Shown: in pieces, positions 2,289 to 13,907 of the stretch
How the letters are laid out: each line of letters starts with the position of its first letter
How positions within the stretch are numbered: position 1 is the stretch's first letter
DNA from: an uncultured Acidobacteriota bacterium
Lineage (GTDB): Bacteria > Acidobacteriota > Terriglobia > Terriglobales > Acidobacteriaceae
Length of the DNA stretch: 40,849 nucleotides
Assembly: GCA_903851035.1 (NCBI GenBank)
Contig: CAINND010000064.1
Location: forward strand, 1 to 40,849
Direction of reading: 5' to 3'
Program-made: the position numbers and the translations under genes
The notes under the pieces: model-generated
What the model was told of the DNA's origin: nothing
Seen by the model: the letters and a program-made list of their open reading frames with translations, nothing else
Database searches by the model: none

Positions 2289-2365
2289 CACTGCATCATT
2301 TAGTCGCATTTGTGGTGGTAGAATCGTCCCGGCAACTGCCGTCACCATTGATACTGTGAGGCGTG

Positions 2366-3070
2366 ATGAACGAAATATCTACATTCCTTTGGCATGTGGA
2401 GCATGCTACGGCCGCCACCACCGTTGCCGATGTGGCGTTGCGGTTAGCCATGGCTGCCCTGTTCGGCGGACTCATAGGCATTGAGCGTCAGCTCAAGCAT
2501 CGGCCCGCAGGGCTGCGAACCAATATGTTCATCTGCTTTGGCGCCGCGCTCTTTACCATTGTCTCCTCGCTCATGGCCGGTCCGCAGGAGGACACGCGCA
2601 TCGCCGCGCAGATCGTCACCGGCATCGGCTTTATCGGCGGCGGTGTCATCCTGCGCGCGGGAGGCACCATTCAGGGTGTCACCACGGCAGCAACTATTTT
2701 CGTCGTGGCCGCCATCGGCATGTGCGCCGGCTCCGGCTTGCTCTTCCCGGCCACGCTGGCCACCATTTTCGTCATCTTTGGATTGCTCATCCTGGGATTG
2801 CTGGAGCAGCACGTCTTTGGCCGCTATGTGGCCGTAGCCTACACCGCAGGCTTGCTCTCTCCCGCCGATTTGCCGCGCCTGTTGCACGATGTGCGGGCCG
2901 CGCAAAAGAGCAAGCTGGTGGATGTCAGCTTTACCAACAAGGAAAATGGAGTCGAGGCCGCATTCATCCTGGATGCCGCGCCCGCCACGCATAGCGCATT
3001 GCAGACCAAACTTCGTGAGTCGCTGGCCACCCATACCATCACCTCCTTCAGTTGCAGTGAGCAGGAGTAA
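2366..3070 (+). CDS. MgtC/SapB family membrane protein
   Basis: Integral membrane protein of the MgtC/SapB family, linked in other bacteria to growth at low magnesium and to control of ATP synthase or membrane potential; the transport role is unproven. The 234-residue product has several hydrophobic segments in the first 150 residues and the family signatures GGLIGIERQ, AGLRTNM and GIGFIGGGVI. A soluble C-terminal domain of about 70 residues has the ACT-like look of longer MgtC proteins. The ATG at 2366 was chosen because a GAGG (2358-2361) sits four bases upstream; a GTG at 2363 is the only close alternative. The stop is four bases before the TTG of the next gene, whose ribosome site lies inside this gene, so the two are probably co-translated. 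No magnesium riboswitch was recognised upstream. Confidence 0.88.
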   Translation: MNEISTFLWHVEHATAATTVADVALRLAMAALFGGLIGIERQLKHRPAGLRTNMFICFGAALFTIVSSLMAGPQEDTRIAAQIVTGIGFIGGGVILRAGGTIQGVTTAATIFVVAAIGMCAGSGLLFPATLATIFVIFGLLILGLLEQHVFGRYVAVAYTAGLLSPADLPRLLHDVRAAQKSKLVDVSFTNKENGVEAAFILDAAPATHSALQTKLRESLATHTITSFSCSEQE

Positions 3071-3074
3071 AGCC

Positions 3075-3875
3075 TTGTACATCCCATCGCGCATCCCCTT
3101 CGTCAAGGCCAGCGCCTACGGCAACGACTTTCTCATCATCGACCGCGAATTCCAGGGCGCGGATGCGGCGGCCCGCACGCGCTCGCTGTGCAATCGCCAC
3201 AACGGCGTCGGCGCCGATGGTGTCGAATGGATCAGCCAACGCGAGGGTTGCGACGCCCACATCGAACTCATCAACGCCGATGGTAGCTTCGCTGAGCTCA
3301 GCGGCAACGGCACGCGCTGCGTCGCCGCCACACTGGCCCACAACCGGGGCGGGGAAGAGTTCACGGTCTCCACCGACGCAGGACCGCGCCGCTGCCGCCT
3401 CACCGGGCACTCCGGCAACCGCTACGACTTCCTTACCGAGATGGGCCACCCGCTGGTGGGCCAGCCCTTTGTCGTCGAGATCGGCTCCATGCGCCGCGAG
3501 GGCGTTCCGGTCAGCATGGGCAACCCGCACTTCGTCATCTTTGTGGAGGAGTTTCCCGCAGAGTGGCAGCGTGAGTCGCAGATCATCCAATCCCGCGCCG
3601 ATCTCTTTCACCAAGGCGTAAACGTGGAGTGGGTGCAGTTCCGCTCGCAGGACGAGATGGTCATCCGCATCTTTGAGCGCGGTGCCGGGGAGACGCAATC
3701 CTCCGGCACGGGAACCTCGGCCTCGGCCTCGGCGGCCATTGCCACGCGCCAGGCGCCGGAAAAGCTGATGGTGCTTGCCCCCGGCGGCGCGCAGCGTGTC
3801 GAATGGCATCCCGGCCAGCCCTTGCAGTTGGAAGGTGCCGCCGTGCTCATCTGCCAAGGGGAATTCTTCCTATAA
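3075..3875 (+). CDS. Diaminopimelate epimerase homologue with both catalytic cysteines replaced by serine
   Basis: DapF interconverts LL- and meso-diaminopimelate with a two-base mechanism that uses a pair of cysteines. The 266-residue product has the family framework: ASAYGNDFLII at the N-terminus, NADGS-x4-S-GNGTR around residue 67, GNPHFV in the middle and ERGAGETQ-S-SGTG near residue 203. The family signature requires Cys before GNG and before G-S/T-G. Here the codons are AGC (Ser76, 3300-3302) and TCC (Ser210, 3702-3704). I checked both in the nucleotide sequence and the frame is intact. A TTG start at 3075 is supported by AGGAG at 3063-3067, seven bases upstream, and by the match of the product N-terminus to the family. 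It lies between mgtC and the recycling genes ldcA and mpl. Either it is inactive as an epimerase or it catalyses a related reaction without thiols; the true DapF may be elsewhere. Family membership is sure, function is not. Confidence 0.85.
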   Translation: MYIPSRIPFVKASAYGNDFLIIDREFQGADAAARTRSLCNRHNGVGADGVEWISQREGCDAHIELINADGSFAELSGNGTRCVAATLAHNRGGEEFTVSTDAGPRRCRLTGHSGNRYDFLTEMGHPLVGQPFVVEIGSMRREGVPVSMGNPHFVIFVEEFPAEWQRESQIIQSRADLFHQGVNVEWVQFRSQDEMVIRIFERGAGETQSSGTGTSASASAAIATRQAPEKLMVLAPGGAQRVEWHPGQPLQLEGAAVLICQGEFFL

Positions 3876-3911: not shown

Positions 3912-4874
3912 ATGCCCAACTCCGAATCAACTCCGCTCCGTCCGCACGCCCTTGCCCCAGGCGGCAAACTGGGCGTGGTAGGTCTGGCCAGCCGCGCCGA
4001 TGAAAGCCTGCTGCGCGAAGGCTGCACCGCCTTGCAGCAGGTCAGCGGCCGCGCCGTCGAGTGCATCACCATGGAGCGCGATGGCGACTTTGCCGGTTCG
4101 GCCGACGCTCGCGCCCTGGCTTTCATGTCGCTCTGGCAGCGCGGAGATGTTGAGGCCATCGTCACTGCGCGTGGCGGTTACGGCTCTAATTACCTTTGCC
4201 CCTGGCTCTGCCAGCCGGAGCAGCAAGCCACGCTGCGTCAGTCGCCCAAAATCTTCGTCGGATACAGTGACAACACCAGCGTCCTGCTGGCGCTGGACCG
4301 CGCCGGTCTGGTTGGCTTTCACGGCCCCATGGTCGCCAGCGACTTCGCCGGCGGCCGCGCCGATGCCGCATCTTTTCTCTCCGCTCTTGGTGGCCTTCCG
4401 CTGGAGTTCTCCTTCGACGCCGCCAGCAGCGTGCAGTGCCTGGTCGGCGGAGAAGCGCAGGGGCCCATCATCGGCGGATGCCTCTCCGTAATTGTCAGTT
4501 CGCTCGGAACTCCCTGGGAGATTCAGACCGCGGGCCGCATCCTCTACATGGAAGACATCAACGAAAAACCCTTTCGCATTGACCGCATGATCATGCACCT
4601 GGCTGCCGCCGGAAAGCTCGACCACGTGCGCGGCATCATCTTTGGAGAGATGCCCGGCTGCACGCCCGCCGCGCAGGGTGAGGAATCTCTGCGGCAGACC
4701 ATTGAGCGTCTGCTTAGCGATCTCGGCGTGCCACTGGTCATGGGCTTCCCCTCGGGGCATGGCGATGCGCAGAACCTTACCGTGCCCTTTGGCGTTCCCG
4801 CCGCGCTGGCCGCCGGAGCGGGCGGCGTGCGCCTGCAGATTGAGCCGGCTGCCCTTCGCGGCCATGCAAAATAG
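3912..4874 (+). CDS. ldcA: LD-carboxypeptidase, peptidase S66 family
   Basis: Cytoplasmic serine peptidase that removes the terminal D-Ala from murein tetrapeptide released during wall turnover, giving the tripeptide used by Mpl. The 320-residue product is of normal family length and has no signal peptide. Signatures: TARGGYGS (residues 86-92), VGYSDNTS with the probable nucleophile Ser119, YMEDINE with the probable catalytic Glu214, and GFPSGHGDAQN with His283, forming the Ser-Glu-His triad known from LdcA. The start ATG at 3912 has no clear ribosome site; an AGGAG is 20 or more bases away. A TTGGCA/TATATA-like pair in the 36-base gap could be a promoter, but this is weak. Only 19 bases separate it from mpl, the next enzyme of the pathway. 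Confidence 0.92.
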   Translation: MPNSESTPLRPHALAPGGKLGVVGLASRADESLLREGCTALQQVSGRAVECITMERDGDFAGSADARALAFMSLWQRGDVEAIVTARGGYGSNYLCPWLCQPEQQATLRQSPKIFVGYSDNTSVLLALDRAGLVGFHGPMVASDFAGGRADAASFLSALGGLPLEFSFDAASSVQCLVGGEAQGPIIGGCLSVIVSSLGTPWEIQTAGRILYMEDINEKPFRIDRMIMHLAAAGKLDHVRGIIFGEMPGCTPAAQGEESLRQTIERLLSDLGVPLVMGFPSGHGDAQNLTVPFGVPAALAAGAGGVRLQIEPAALRGHAK

Positions 4875-4893: not shown

Positions 4894-6312
4894 TTGAGCA
4901 CTCCCCGCAACATTCATCTCATCGGCATCTGCGGCACGGCCATGGCATCCCTGGCCGGAATGCTGCGCCAGCTTGGCCATCGCGTGCAGGGCTCGGACGT
5001 TGCCGCCTATCCGCCTATGTCGGATTTTCTCGCCCGCCTCGGCATCCCTGTGATGCAGCCCTTCAGCGAGAAGAATCTCTCGCCCGCGCCAGACCTCGTC
5101 GTCGTTGGCAACGCCATCTCGCGCGGCAATCCCGAACTCGAATACGTCCTCGACCATCGCCTGCCCATGGTCAGTATGGCCGAGCTGATTCATCAGGAAT
5201 TTCTCACCGGACGGCACTCGCTGGTCATCGCCGGTACTCACGGCAAGACGACCACCACAAGCATGACGGCCTGGATTTTCCAGTCTGCCGGTCGCGATCC
5301 CTCGTTCCTCATCGGCGGCATCGCGGAAAACTTCGGCTCCAGCTTCGCCGTCACTGGTGGATCGGAGTTCATCATCGAGGGCGATGAGTACGACACAGCC
5401 TTCTTCGACAAAGGCCCCAAGTTTCTGCATTACTTTCCCGACGCTGTCATCCTCACCTCTGTCGAGTTCGATCACGCCGACATCTATCGCGATCTCGACG
5501 CCGTGAAGTTCGCCTTCCAGCGCCTCATCAATCTTGTGCCGCGTCGTGGCCGAGTCATCGCCTGGGACGGCCACCAGAACGTCAGCGACTGCGTCGTCCG
5601 CGCCCTTTGCCCGGTGGAGCGCTACGGCTTCGCCCCGGATTCCTACTGGCGCATCACCAACCTCGCGCACTCGCCGCAAGGTTCAAGCTGGAGCATCCTG
5701 CGCGATGGACAGCCCTTCGGCGACTTCCACTTCGCGCTCAGTGGGGATTACAACGTACTCAACGCCACGGCCGCCATCGCCCTGGCCCACGCCTACGGCA
5801 TCACCGCCGCACAGAGCGCCACGGCCCTCGCCGGCTTTCTCTCCGTCAAGCGCCGCCTGGAAGTACGCGCCGAAGTCGCTGGCGTCACCATCATCGACGA
5901 CTTTGCGCACCATCCTACGGCCATCGCTGCAACGCTCGAGGCGCTGCGTTCGCGCTATCCCGGTCGCCGCCTGTGGGCCGTGCTGGAGCCCCGCTCCAAC
6001 ACCCTGCGCCGCAATATTTTTCAGCATGAGCTTGTCGCCGCGCTGGCCTCGGCCGATCGCGTCCTCATCGCTGCCGTCTTCTTTAAGTCCACGGATGCGC
6101 TCAAGCCCGAGGAACGCCTCAACGTCACCGAAGTCATCGCCGAGTTGAAGGCCCGCGGCACTCCGGCCGCAGAGTGCGCCGATGCCGACACCATCGTCGC
6201 CACGCTCGCGCCGCAGTTGCAGTCGGGCGATGTCGTCGCCCTGCTCTCGAATGGCGGCTTCGGCAATATCTATGAAAAGCTCCCGGCGGCGCTCAAGGAG
6301 CGTGCTCTGTGA
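4894..6312 (+). CDS. mpl: UDP-N-acetylmuramate:L-alanyl-gamma-D-glutamyl-meso-diaminopimelate ligase
   Basis: Mur-ligase family enzyme that joins recycled L-Ala-gamma-D-Glu-meso-DAP tripeptide to UDP-MurNAc with ATP, returning wall peptide to synthesis. The 472-residue product follows E. coli Mpl closely by eye: HLIGICGTAM at the N-terminus, GSDVAAYPPMS, GNAISRGNP, the P-loop GTHGKTT at 114-120, EGDEYDTAFFDK, LTSVEFDHADIY, DDFAHHPTAI and LEPRSNT, the last two typical of Mpl rather than MurC. The TTG start at 4894 is supported by AAGGA at 4880-4884. The stop overlaps the GTG of the following peptidase gene by four bases. This gene makes it likely that the organism has DAP-type peptidoglycan. 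Confidence 0.95.
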   Translation: MSTPRNIHLIGICGTAMASLAGMLRQLGHRVQGSDVAAYPPMSDFLARLGIPVMQPFSEKNLSPAPDLVVVGNAISRGNPELEYVLDHRLPMVSMAELIHQEFLTGRHSLVIAGTHGKTTTTSMTAWIFQSAGRDPSFLIGGIAENFGSSFAVTGGSEFIIEGDEYDTAFFDKGPKFLHYFPDAVILTSVEFDHADIYRDLDAVKFAFQRLINLVPRRGRVIAWDGHQNVSDCVVRALCPVERYGFAPDSYWRITNLAHSPQGSSWSILRDGQPFGDFHFALSGDYNVLNATAAIALAHAYGITAAQSATALAGFLSVKRRLEVRAEVAGVTIIDDFAHHPTAIAATLEALRSRYPGRRLWAVLEPRSNTLRRNIFQHELVAALASADRVLIAAVFFKSTDALKPEERLNVTEVIAELKARGTPAAECADADTIVATLAPQLQSGDVVALLSNGGFGNIYEKLPAALKERAL

Positions 6313-8282
6313 GGTCAACTCCGCGCCGTGCCATTTGCCTGCCCGCAATCCGTCTGTTGGCTGCCACGCTCACGCTGCTTGCGCTCGCCGCGCCGCTTTT
6401 TGCGCAGGCGGAGAATTTCTGGTGTCCGGCGGAAGGTGTCGCCTACGGTGTCTCGCTCAAAAAAGCCAGCGAGCACATCGTGCATGTGGATGCCGTCACC
6501 CACCAGCCCGCCGCAGACTTCGCTTTGCCGGTGTGGAATGCGCTTTACCAGGTGCGCGATTTTGCCGCGAACGTTCAGCATGTTGAAGCCTACGAGGGCG
6601 TGCCGGAGTGGCTCTGCGATGGCTGCACCACGCGCGAGGCCACGGCACGCAAGCTCGATAAATCCACCTGGCGCGTGGAGAGCAAAGCGCACCATCCCTG
6701 CCTTACCTTCAGCTACGACGTCGTCGCCAACGATCCCGGCCCCTTCAGCAGCAGCCACGACACGCAGCACGCATTCTTCAACTGGGCGCAGCTACTCGTC
6801 TATCGCCCGGAGAAGCGTGATGCGCCGGTCACGCTGCGCCTGCTGGACGTGCCTGCCGCGTGGCGCCTGCGCGATGGCGGTGTCTTTGGCGCTCTCTCGC
6901 AGGAGGAGCTTTTCGCTCAACCAACGGCCGCCGCAGCAAATTACGATCGCCTCGTTGACGCGCCCGCGCTCTTTGGCCGTCTGCATGAGGCAAACTTCGA
7001 GCAGGATGGCGCGCGCTATCACATCGCCGTGGATTCTCCGGAAGTCGATCTTCAGGCCCTGCAATACATGCTGCGCCGCATCACCGCCGCGGGCGTGGAC
7101 TGGATGCATGACCGCCCCTACGATGACTACACGTTTCTCTATCTTGTCGCGCATGGCAGCGGCAGCGGTGGCATGGAGCACGCCAACTCCACGGCTATCG
7201 ACGTTTCACTCGACCGCATGAAGCAGGATGTGACTGCCGCCGCCGGGGTCAGCGCCCACGAGTTCTTCCATCTCTGGAACGTCAAGCGCATCCGCCCGCA
7301 GTCGCTGGAGCCGATTGACTACAGCCGCGAGCAGTACTCGCGCGCGCTCTGGTTCAGTGAAGGCGTCACCACTTCGGTCTCGGAGATTCTTCTTTATCGT
7401 GCTGGCCTCAGCGACGAAAAGCGCTTTCTCACCCGCCTTGCCAACACCATCGGCAACGTGGAGCAACGACCCGCGCATCGCACGCAATCCGCTGAGGAGT
7501 CCAGCCTCGATACATGGTTCGACAAGTATCCTGAGTATCATCGCCCGGAGCGCAGCATCTCCTACTATTCCAAGGGAGAAATTCTCGGCTTCCTCATCGA
7601 TCTTGAGATGCGCCGCCTGACCAATGGCCGCCGCTGCCTGCGCGACCTGATGCAGTACCTCAACCAGCGTTACGCGCAGCCTGGACTTTACTTCGACGAC
7701 AGCGAGGGCATTCGCCTTGCGCTGGAGGTTCTTACCGGCAGTGACTTCCGCGACTTCTTTTCGCGCTATGTCAGCGGCACGGCAGATCTCCCCTATGAGC
7801 GCGACTTCGCCTACATCGGCCTGCAACTGACGCATCGCCAAAGCGAGCAGCCTTACAGCGGCATCCTCGCCACACACGCGCCCGGCAAGCCGCTCACCAT
7901 CACGCGTGTGGAAGATGGCTCACCGGCCGCCAAGGCGCACCTGCTTACCGGCGATGTCATTCTGGAAGCTGATGGACACGCCCCGCAGGGCGATCTGCAC
8001 TCCATCCTGCAGCGTCATGATGCGCATCAGCCATTGCGGCTTAAGATCAGCAGCGCAGGTGTCACGCGTGACGTTGAACTCACGCTCACCCTTCGCAAGA
8101 GTGATGAGTGGTTCTTTGAAGATGCGCCCAACGTCACAGCCGTGCAGCGCCGCCGCCGCGCGTATTTCTATCGTGGAGAGTCCGAGGAGGCCGCGCCCGC
8201 CGACCATGGTGCAGTCGTCATGCAGAGCCGCGTCGAGGATCGCGACCCAGGCTCGAAACAAGAATCGGGCTGGAATCAATGA
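6309..8282 (+). CDS. M61 family metallopeptidase (glycyl aminopeptidase type) with PDZ domain
   Basis: Exported zinc peptidase. The 657-residue product starts with a signal peptide (basic N-terminus, hydrophobic core, likely cut after LFAQA near residue 34). A beta-rich N-terminal domain follows, then the M61 core with GGMEHANS and the zinc motif HEFFHLWNVKRIRP (His317, Glu318, His321); Glu351 in WFSEGVTT is a likely third ligand. A PDZ domain covers about residues 515-600. Family members such as Sphingomonas glycyl aminopeptidase release N-terminal Gly or Ala. Gly/Ala are also wall-peptide residues, but a link to the recycling genes upstream is only contextual. The GTG start overlaps the mpl stop (GTGA), and its own stop overlaps the next ATG (ATGA), so all three genes are translationally coupled. 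Confidence 0.9.
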   Translation: MRSTPRRAICLPAIRLLAATLTLLALAAPLFAQAENFWCPAEGVAYGVSLKKASEHIVHVDAVTHQPAADFALPVWNALYQVRDFAANVQHVEAYEGVPEWLCDGCTTREATARKLDKSTWRVESKAHHPCLTFSYDVVANDPGPFSSSHDTQHAFFNWAQLLVYRPEKRDAPVTLRLLDVPAAWRLRDGGVFGALSQEELFAQPTAAAANYDRLVDAPALFGRLHEANFEQDGARYHIAVDSPEVDLQALQYMLRRITAAGVDWMHDRPYDDYTFLYLVAHGSGSGGMEHANSTAIDVSLDRMKQDVTAAAGVSAHEFFHLWNVKRIRPQSLEPIDYSREQYSRALWFSEGVTTSVSEILLYRAGLSDEKRFLTRLANTIGNVEQRPAHRTQSAEESSLDTWFDKYPEYHRPERSISYYSKGEILGFLIDLEMRRLTNGRRCLRDLMQYLNQRYAQPGLYFDDSEGIRLALEVLTGSDFRDFFSRYVSGTADLPYERDFAYIGLQLTHRQSEQPYSGILATHAPGKPLTITRVEDGSPAAKAHLLTGDVILEADGHAPQGDLHSILQRHDAHQPLRLKISSAGVTRDVELTLTLRKSDEWFFEDAPNVTAVQRRRRAYFYRGESEEAAPADHGAVVMQSRVEDRDPGSKQESGWNQ

Positions 8283-12170: not shown

Positions 12171-13907
12171 ATGGCCGATTACATTTACACGATGGAGACG
12201 CGCCTTTTGCCGGAGCAGATGCGCACAGTGCAGGCCGTCCAGAACTTTGCCCGCGCCCATGGCATGAACGTCTACCTCACGGGCGGGGCCATCCGAGACA
12301 TCCTCACCGGCTACCCGATCCGCGATCTGGACTTCAGCGTCCAGGGTAACCCGTTGAAATTACAGCGGGATATCGAAAAAGCGGGCGGCATCGTGGACAT
12401 GGTGGACGAGCACTTCCACATCCTCCACGCGGTGCTGAATGGGGTTCGGCTGGAAATCAGCATGGCGCGCCTGGAGCACTACGACAAGCCCGGCAAGCCG
12501 CCGCAAATTAAGCCCGCCACCATCAACGAGGATCTGCGCCGCCGCGACTTTAGCTGCAACGCCATGGCGCTCTCGCTCAACGAAGGCTCCCGCGGACTGC
12601 TGCTCGACCCCTTCAACGGCGCGGCGGACATTGAAGCCCGGCTGTTGCGCGTGCTGCACACCTACGCCTTCCTGGAAGACCCGGCCCGACTCATCCGCGC
12701 CATCCGCTTCTCCACTCGCTTCGGCTGGGAGCTGGAGGACCGTACCCGCGCCCGCTACAACAGCGCCATCGAAGGCGAATACATCCAGTACCTGGCCCAC
12801 CGCTCCATTGGCTATGAGATTGAGCAGATTGCTCACGAGGAGAACCCACTGCCGGTGATGAAGGCTCTGGAGGCCGAAGGCTGGCTTAAGGTCCTGTGCC
12901 CCAAGTGGACGGTCAGCAAGGCCGACGTACCTGAGCTGACGCATCTGCTGAAGACGCGCGCCCTGATGGCCGCCTACGGCATCACCGTCGATGCCTCTCC
13001 GGCCGTCATGCACTTCCTTACGCTCAAGCTCAACGACGCCGACGTGGCATGGATACAGAAACAGATTCCGCACCGCGAGTTTGTCGCCGCATGGAAGCGC
13101 CTGGAGCATGACGCCAAGGAGCTAAGCAAAAAGCTCACCTCGCGCGAGGCCAACACCAACAGCGGCACATGGAAGCTGCTCACCGAGGCCAAGCCCGAGG
13201 CGATGCTCTATCTCGACGTTACCGGACGCAATAAGACGGTCACGGAGAAGATCAAGAACTTCCTCGGCAAGTGGCGCCAGTTCACCGAGCGCATCCCCTA
13301 CGCCAAGATGACCGAGCTGCGCATCACGCCGCAGTTGCCGGAGTACGCCAAAATCTGCCAGGAGGCTTTCTTCCTCCTGCTGGACGGCAAGCTGCGCAGC
13401 GAGGGTGAAATCGCACGCTTCCTCGCTCCCTACGAGCCGCCACCACCGCCTCCGCCGCCAACGCCTGTGCGCCGTGGCCGCGCCGCCGTCAAAAAGCCCA
13501 CCGTTGCCAAGCCCGCCGCGGTTGCTCCTGCGGCTGTCGCGGCACCCGTGGCCGCCAAGGTTGAGCCCAAGCCCGCAAAGGTGGAGGCCAAGCCGACGGC
13601 CGCAGCCAAGCCCGCTCCCGTGGCGAAGCCTGTTGTTGCGCCAAAGCCAGTGGCCAAGCCTGCGGCGAAGGCCGTCAAGAAGCCCGCACCCGCCAAGCCT
13701 GTGAAGAAGGCGGCAAAACCGGCGCCGAAGCCTGCTAAAAAGATTGCCAAGCCCGCGCCTAAGAAGGCTGCTTCCAAACCGGTGAAGAAGGCCGCCAAGC
13801 CTGTAAAAAAGGCCTCGAAGCCGGCAAAGAAAGCCCCCAAAAAGCCGGAAGGGAAGAAGCATCACGACTCCGGCAAGCACAAGGGCGGTAAAAAGAAGCA
13901 TCGCTGA
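12171..13907 (+). CDS. CCA-adding/poly(A) polymerase-type nucleotidyltransferase with histone-H1-like tail
   Basis: Class II template-independent nucleotidyltransferase that adds or repairs tRNA 3' CCA, or polyadenylates RNA. Core motifs: LTGGAIRD (37-43), metal-binding DLD (52-54), RRRDFSCNAMA, DPFNGAADIEARLLRVL, EDPARLIRAIRF and HRSIGYEIEQI. The core of about 420 residues is followed by a run of eight prolines and then about 150 residues of Lys/Ala/Pro/Val repeats ending in a His/Lys-rich tip (residues 423-578). Such tails resemble eukaryotic H1 and bacterial histone-like proteins and would bind nucleic acid. Start 12171 has a poorly spaced AGGA; ATG 12192 is an alternative. CCA enzyme and bacterial poly(A) polymerase cannot be separated here by eye. 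A strong terminator follows. Confidence 0.88.
   Translation: MADYIYTMETRLLPEQMRTVQAVQNFARAHGMNVYLTGGAIRDILTGYPIRDLDFSVQGNPLKLQRDIEKAGGIVDMVDEHFHILHAVLNGVRLEISMARLEHYDKPGKPPQIKPATINEDLRRRDFSCNAMALSLNEGSRGLLLDPFNGAADIEARLLRVLHTYAFLEDPARLIRAIRFSTRFGWELEDRTRARYNSAIEGEYIQYLAHRSIGYEIEQIAHEENPLPVMKALEAEGWLKVLCPKWTVSKADVPELTHLLKTRALMAAYGITVDASPAVMHFLTLKLNDADVAWIQKQIPHREFVAAWKRLEHDAKELSKKLTSREANTNSGTWKLLTEAKPEAMLYLDVTGRNKTVTEKIKNFLGKWRQFTERIPYAKMTELRITPQLPEYAKICQEAFFLLLDGKLRSEGEIARFLAPYEPPPPPPPPTPVRRGRAAVKKPTVAKPAAVAPAAVAAPVAAKVEPKPAKVEAKPTAAAKPAPVAKPVVAPKPVAKPAAKAVKKPAPAKPVKKAAKPAPKPAKKIAKPAPKKAASKPVKKAAKPVKKASKPAKKAPKKPEGKKHHDSGKHKGGKKKHR

Follow-up and report, generated by a model that had tools for sequence, protein, structure and literature searches.

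The DAP epimerase DapF, an antibacterial target, is a textbook example of two-base thiol/thiolate catalysis. The window analysed here, i.e. the whole stretch of 40,849 nucleotides from an uncultured Acidobacteriota bacterium, contains a dapF homologue with serine at both catalytic cysteine positions, and the question is what a protein of this kind does. The gene (positions 3075–3875, + strand) encodes 266 amino acids. Its frame is open from the TTG start at 3075 to the stop codon at 3873–3875 and is preceded, 7 bases 5' of the TTG, by AGGAG (3063–3067, +), the probable ribosome-binding site as read from the sequence; the intact frame and good ribosome site described in the earlier note are both present. 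The translation contains the motifs NADGSFAEL-S76-GNGTR and ERGAGETQS-S210-GTG. As had been claimed, Ser76 is encoded by AGC (3300–3302, +) and Ser210 by TCC (3702–3704, +), and pairwise alignments with solved DapFs place the two residues on the catalytic cysteines. The protein scores 179.6 bits against TIGR00652, the curated NCBIfam DapF equivalog model (cut-off 114.65), and 136.8 bits against PF01678 (cut-off 34.7), which was the only family found in the Pfam scan; PF05544 (proline racemase superfamily) was not matched. The two catalytic cysteines expected of a DapF are replaced by Ser76 and Ser210. The protein is thus a DapF homologue without one of the features that define the family, and for the time being it is named here a Ser/Ser DapF variant rather than simply a DAP epimerase. 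By TIGR00652 a protein devoid of the catalytic residues would be annotated just as an epimerase.

The window genome (98.9% complete) has a single PF01678 locus, the gene at 3075–3875. A second, cysteine-bearing DapF, for which the earlier note had advised a search, was not found in this genome and is rejected as a candidate. Among the window genome and 60 relatives a DapF match was obtained in 56 of 61; the proteins extracted from these 56 are Ser/Ser without exception. A sequencing error is excluded because the same pair occurs in all 56 homologues from independent genomes, and the earlier view of a selected, not decaying, gene holds as well. Sequencing error or gene decay taken together thus deserve practically no credence: besides the recurrence of the same residues in 56/56 proteins, the frame is intact, and among 66 pairs from 12 of the 38 loci of the window's family the six in which dS is below 1.6 give dN/dS values of 0.13–0.40, a weak indication with dS near saturation. 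No DapF match was found in five of the 61 genomes (G001, G049, G050, G052 and G055). G001, G052 and G055, one of them from the window's genus, are at least 98% complete and possess LysA; the gene may be missing or fall into an assembly gap.

The distribution of the variant is wide. In a sample of the phylum TIGR00652 was matched in 188 of 199 genomes. Relatives and phylum sample together gave 238 matching genomes; 183 of these were classified, the other 55 including 3 of the 17 genomes of family group f32. The classified genomes form 71 Acidobacteriota family groups: 45 contain Ser/Ser only, 23 Cys/Cys only, two Cys/Ser (f17 and f50, one genome each, with loci L097 of G066 and L149 of G129) and one, f32, is mixed. 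Ser/Ser is the ordinary DapF form of most Acidobacteriota families sampled, and the conservation of the pair in the lineage, which the earlier note had left to be checked, is evident from both the relatives and the family groups. The Ser/Ser DapF is a real, widespread variant. In f32, of which 14 of 17 genomes were examined, each of the 14 has a Cys/Cys gene, and three of them (G123, G134 and G163; loci L088, L117 and L119 versus L255–L257) have an extra Ser/Ser gene, the Cys/Cys one being divergent; the Ser/Ser protein may therefore do another job in f32. Outside f32 both forms were found together in no classified genome. This is as expected if one form replaces the other. One Ser/Ser genome, G219 (f58, L072), has two TIGR00652 matches. 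In f36 (L274, L278, L279 and L281) the conserved Arg that follows GNG has been lost from the Ser/Ser DapF (SGNGMA), and SGTG is replaced by SSTG, a further drift of the active site.

Named genomes were scanned with patterns drawn from Ser/Ser sequences, and the best 80 loci among the matches listed, which cannot gauge the absence of Ser/Ser elsewhere, comprise 21 Ser/Ser, 56 Cys/Cys (from many phyla) and three Cys/Ser. The 21 Ser/Ser loci belong to Acidobacteria, Blastocatellia, Pyrinomonadaceae, Aminicenantes and the bins HR08 and HR10 (phylum unnamed). All three Cys/Ser loci (L196, L206 and L224) are from Hydrogenedentota, of which no further loci were found, with Cys at the first position and Ser at the second, possibly a halfway form. 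Two of the named proteins, one from an Acidobacteria bin and one from a Blastocatellia bin, reach a rounded identity of 1.00 with proteins of genomes from the window's phylum, by which the window is placed in Acidobacteriota. Given the Cys/Ser proteins of the two Acidobacteriota groups and of Hydrogenedentota, the second cysteine may have been the first to go.

The serines themselves have been maintained over this range. Among 135 distinct sequences Ser76 is encoded by TCN in 118 and by AGC in 17, and Ser210 by TCN in 122 and by AGY in 13. No single base change joins the TCN and AGY codon sets. Among the 135 sequences, parsimony on a FastTree tree requires at least ten switches between these codon sets at Ser76 and at least two at Ser210; since the residue persists through these switches, it is serine itself that is maintained. 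In an 80-row tree, from a subset that left out the window itself (L003), the Ser/Ser rows group strongly but form no single clean clade (minimum four changes, two of them forced by starred branches), and a single Ser/Ser clade is not rejected by the AU test (p 0.135).

The predicted structure corresponds to an ordinary DapF. For modelling, the window protein was aligned with 48 relatives, selected from the 80 named loci (L168, L172 and L229 were omitted owing to a stop codon within their coordinates, the others for size). The window protein was modelled with a mean pLDDT of 95 and a pTM of 0.91. The top Foldseek match is 9mro_A (E 1.1e-25), and with a VIA Z of 34.9 to this cyanobacterial DAP epimerase (9MRO; 253 residues, 1.8 A) the model has a DapF fold over its full length. 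O-ureidoserine racemase and DapFs of plants and bacteria also rank among the best structural matches, and hydroxyproline epimerases and a dehydratase were matched as well. In the model Ser76 is the final residue ahead of helix 77–91 and Ser210 the final residue ahead of helix 211–223. For the related histidine racemase HisR, the N-termini of the central helices are described as the site of the catalytic residues (PMC11602996).

The pocket for DAP is retained. C. glutamicum DapF is almost inactive when N15, N74, N85, N159, N194, E212, R213 or T223 is replaced by alanine, according to the accessible text of PMC5296763. The window protein has every one of the equivalents, mapped by alignment as N17, N67, N78, N150, N183, E201, R202 and T212, in agreement with the earlier statement that the surrounding family residues are kept. 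The alignment comprises 145 Ser/Ser rows besides the query, among them the locus of the window itself and a few genes that occur in duplicate; the window pieces L001 and L002 and the duplicates L233–L235 and L250–L254 were left out. The octet is complete in 138 of these 145 rows (T212 counted as Thr or Ser), whereas it is complete in only 55 of the 117 Cys/Cys rows, the deviations being mainly Val150 (39 rows, as counted all Acidobacteriota) and Asp67 (17 rows). In their DAP pocket the Ser/Ser proteins are thus nearer to an ordinary DapF than many Cys/Cys proteins of the phylum. The columns that differ most between Ser/Ser and Asn150 Cys/Cys proteins include 199, 235, 117, 111, 75, 160, 119 and 209; residues 75 and 209 directly precede Ser76 and Ser210. 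At position 152 DapF has His, which partners the first catalytic Cys. Its replacement by Gln, Asn, Phe or Val in 50 of the 145 Ser/Ser rows speaks against a working epimerase, though Gln is also found in 15 of the 117 Cys/Cys rows.

It could be supposed that another cysteine, Cys39 or Cys82, supplies the acid/base thiol and that the chemistry is still thiol-based. Cys39 occurs in 134 of 137 Ser/Ser rows and is less frequent in Cys/Cys (56 of 84), and Cys82 occurs in 128 of 137 Ser/Ser rows. Neither residue is invariant in the Ser/Ser proteins, and Cys82 is present in 80 of 84 Cys/Cys rows; because both are common in Cys/Cys proteins too, they do not look like compensation, and we regard a substitute thiol as very improbable.

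Loss of both catalytic thiols with retention of the binding residues might also point to a non-catalytic DAP-binding or regulatory protein, LL-DAP being used directly or epimerised elsewhere. E. coli DapF reportedly binds the RNA pyrophosphohydrolase RppH, and RppH-DapF complexes are present in the PDB. The persistence of serine at both sites through switches of codon family, which mere binding does not need, and the retention in most relatives of LysA, which requires meso-DAP, make such a role improbable.

The lysine and peptidoglycan pathways show what the protein would have to provide. LysA acts on meso-DAP and needs it. A LysA match was found in 60 of the 61 genomes (the window's and its relatives), in 57 of them over the cut-off. 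In the phylum sample 96 of the 199 genomes have a LysA that exceeds the cut-off, 75 of them in Ser/Ser-only and 15 in Cys/Cys-only families. In that search 19 of the 45 Ser/Ser-only families are without LysA over the cut-off; eight of the 19 were covered only by the search of relatives, where LysA is over the cut-off in seven of the eight, the exception being f9 (G057). The window genome retains LysA, an Mpl over its equivalog cut-off and a MurE with the DNPR motif, which presumably marks the DAP-adding enzyme. No report on acidobacterial peptidoglycan chemistry (meso- versus LL-DAP) was found by title in the open-licence literature.

Other sources of meso-DAP were sought in the same genomes. 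Meso-DAP can be formed independently of DapF by a known enzyme, the meso-DAP dehydrogenase Ddh. Ddh (PF16654) was found in none of the 61 genomes, and in the phylum sample only two of 199 genomes have a match, both partial and both in the Cys/Cys group f37; a Ddh bypass in the Ser/Ser genomes searched is therefore rejected. The DapL route, put forward earlier as an alternative, does not remove the problem: DapL produces LL-DAP, so the need for an epimerase would stay, and it is Ddh, not found here, that would be the real bypass. With the DapL model TIGR03540 aminotransferase matches were obtained in all 61 genomes, none of them over the cut-off. A proline racemase homologue (PF05544) as a replacement is also rejected: the window genome has none, a match occurs in 24 of the 61 genomes, and the weak matches of G055 and G008 look PhzF-like by eye. 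As no Ddh, second DapF or PF05544 protein was found in the window genome, the Ser/Ser protein is its only known candidate for the step from LL- to meso-DAP. Either the thiols are dispensable in such a case or a meso-DAP route exists that has yet to be discovered.

The surroundings of the gene were considered as a further indication of function. On the + strand an mgtC-family gene (2363–3070; PF02308, E 1.1e-35) ends 4 bases 5' of dapF. It is followed, after dapF, by an ldcA-like gene for an LD-carboxypeptidase of family S66 (3912–4874; PF02016 and PF17676; 146 bits, under the NCBIfam equivalog cut-off of 378), by mpl for the UDP-MurNAc:L-Ala-D-Glu-meso-DAP ligase (4894–6312; TIGR01081, 438.5 bits, cut-off 388.7) and by an M61-type peptidase gene with a PDZ domain (6309–8282; PF05299, PF17899 and PF13180), which overlaps the end of mpl. 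The closely packed order, with dapF between mgtC and ldcA-mpl, is as reported before. Farther along, an ORF at 12171–13907 resembles by eye, in translation, a tRNA nucleotidyltransferase/poly(A) polymerase; its long C-terminal tail is rich in Lys, Pro and Ala.

The murein-recycling tie drawn from this order by the earlier note does not extend beyond the window's own family. In flanks of 1.5 to 6 kb LdcA adjoins the Ser/Ser dapF at 38 of 38 loci of this family and Mpl at 37 of 38, but among the other Ser/Ser loci both are near dapF at only one of 99 (L048). Over all 137 Ser/Ser loci LdcA is found at 39 and Mpl at 38, all but one of them in the window's family, and with the same flanks neither was a neighbour at any of 84 Cys/Cys loci. 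The expectation that Ser/Ser would always stand next to ldcA-mpl thus fails, and recycling linkage as a defining property of the Ser/Ser DapF is rejected. Because the linkage is local to one family, the cluster is to be seen as a family arrangement that gives no clue to the chemistry. A dap/lys operon around the Ser/Ser dapF in other lineages finds no support either: no dap or lys gene was present in the five neighbour clusters scanned (of 29), which are a trypsin-PDZ protease, a PfkB kinase, a sub-threshold PMT_2 match, an AIRS-domain protein (presumably ThiL-like) and one frame without a match. In contrast, the Cys/Cys dapF of G251 directly adjoins lysA.

The protein might instead be a DapF-fold enzyme with a changed reaction (an elimination, as in a dehydratase, or epimerisation of another amino acid or of a DAP-containing peptide), meso-DAP coming from another epimerase. 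Several observations are in line with this: O-ureidoserine racemase is among the nearest structures, dapF stands beside ldcA-mpl in the window's family, three f32 genomes hold both forms, and the near-complete genomes G001, G052 and G055 have LysA but no DapF match. There are also precedents in the accessible parts of two reports, namely a dehydratase with a Ser/Thr pair in the proline racemase superfamily (eLife 03275) and F. nucleatum HisR, predicted as a DapF and actually a histidine racemase (PMC11602996). Against it, the DAP-contact octet is nearly always complete in the Ser/Ser rows, and with Ser/Ser as the sole DapF form in 45 of 71 groups and no Ddh found, a second epimerase would be needed in every one of these; PF05544 is absent from the window genome and matched in fewer than half of the genomes searched. 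We consider a changed reaction unlikely, though it has to be taken seriously. Dehydratase or DAP-binder roles account less well than an epimerase for the wide distribution.

On balance the Ser/Ser DapF is probably a working DAP epimerase, which would convert LL-DAP to meso-DAP with two serine hydroxyls as the acid/base groups; this reading is inferred from the sequences, their conservation and the predicted fold. DAP would be held by the conserved Asn/Glu/Arg/Thr set, and the alpha-carboxylate of the substrate would lie between two helices that oppose each other with their N-termini. Ser76 and Ser210 would then face the alpha-carbon from opposite sides, with their hydroxyls in place of the thiols, one serine taking a proton and the other giving one. 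The meso-DAP formed would serve both lysine synthesis (LysA) and peptidoglycan (MurE and Mpl). The new epimerase chemistry offered earlier as one possible meaning is accordingly a live option, supported by the retained octet and by the sole presence of Ser/Ser in most groups. For the broader statement that a large set of cofactor-independent amino-acid epimerases is thiol-free, uses two serine hydroxyls and constitutes the standard DAP epimerase of most of the phylum, we see the chances as evenly balanced.

The hydroxyl of serine is a much weaker acid than a thiol, and the strong impairment of Cys-to-Ser mutants of related enzymes also argues against a thiol-free epimerase. The activity of such HisR mutants is greatly reduced (PMC11602996, accessible part), and in DapF and its relatives Cys-to-Ser replacement reportedly impairs catalysis (PMC12039745, accessible part); the accessible part of a racemase review (PMC8142540) contains nothing on DapF cysteine mutants. 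As to the cause of the replacement, Aminicenantes are largely anaerobic. Since they are also Ser/Ser, oxidative stress alone seems an unlikely reason. The two cysteines of C. glutamicum DapF can form a disulphide that closes the active site, as given in the accessible text of PMC5296763, and a Ser/Ser enzyme would presumably escape this switch.

If the Ser/Ser protein does epimerise DAP, the unactivated alpha-carbon of an amino acid can be deprotonated without the cysteine pair deemed indispensable for this step, and Ser/Ser bacteria should not be hit by inhibitors directed at the thiols of DapF. The variant is apparently unreported: no natural Ser/Ser DapF was found by title or abstract start in the open-licence literature on DAP epimerase, which is not proof of novelty.

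Comparison with known enzymes places the variant closest to the classical DapFs (TIGR00652, PF01678; C. glutamicum 5M47, H. influenzae 1GQZ and cyanobacterial 9MRO). It shares with them the full-length fold, a score above the cut-off, the contact residues and catalytic positions directly before two helices. It differs in the absence of both catalytic cysteines and in shifts at residues 75, 209 and 199. O-ureidoserine racemase (7VDY), which has a role in an antibiotic pathway (PMC8142540, accessible part), is a close DapF relative by fold and sequence but keeps Cys/Cys. Serine at the same positions, with the structure preserved, is known from H. influenzae DapF C73S and C217S (2Q9H and 2Q9J) and from HisR C67S/C209S (PMC11602996, accessible part). 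These are single engineered changes, strongly weakening the enzyme in the case of HisR, whereas the pair described here is natural and conserved. Natural replacements are described in the accessible part of eLife 03275 for enzymes of a related two-domain fold, family PF05544. The Ser/Thr 3-hydroxyproline dehydratase acts on a different substrate. In the Ser/Cys 4-hydroxyproline 2-epimerase, likewise with another substrate, a single serine is paired with a cysteine; in this epimerase a natural Ser stands for one catalytic Cys and the enzyme still works, a precedent for serine in such a role.
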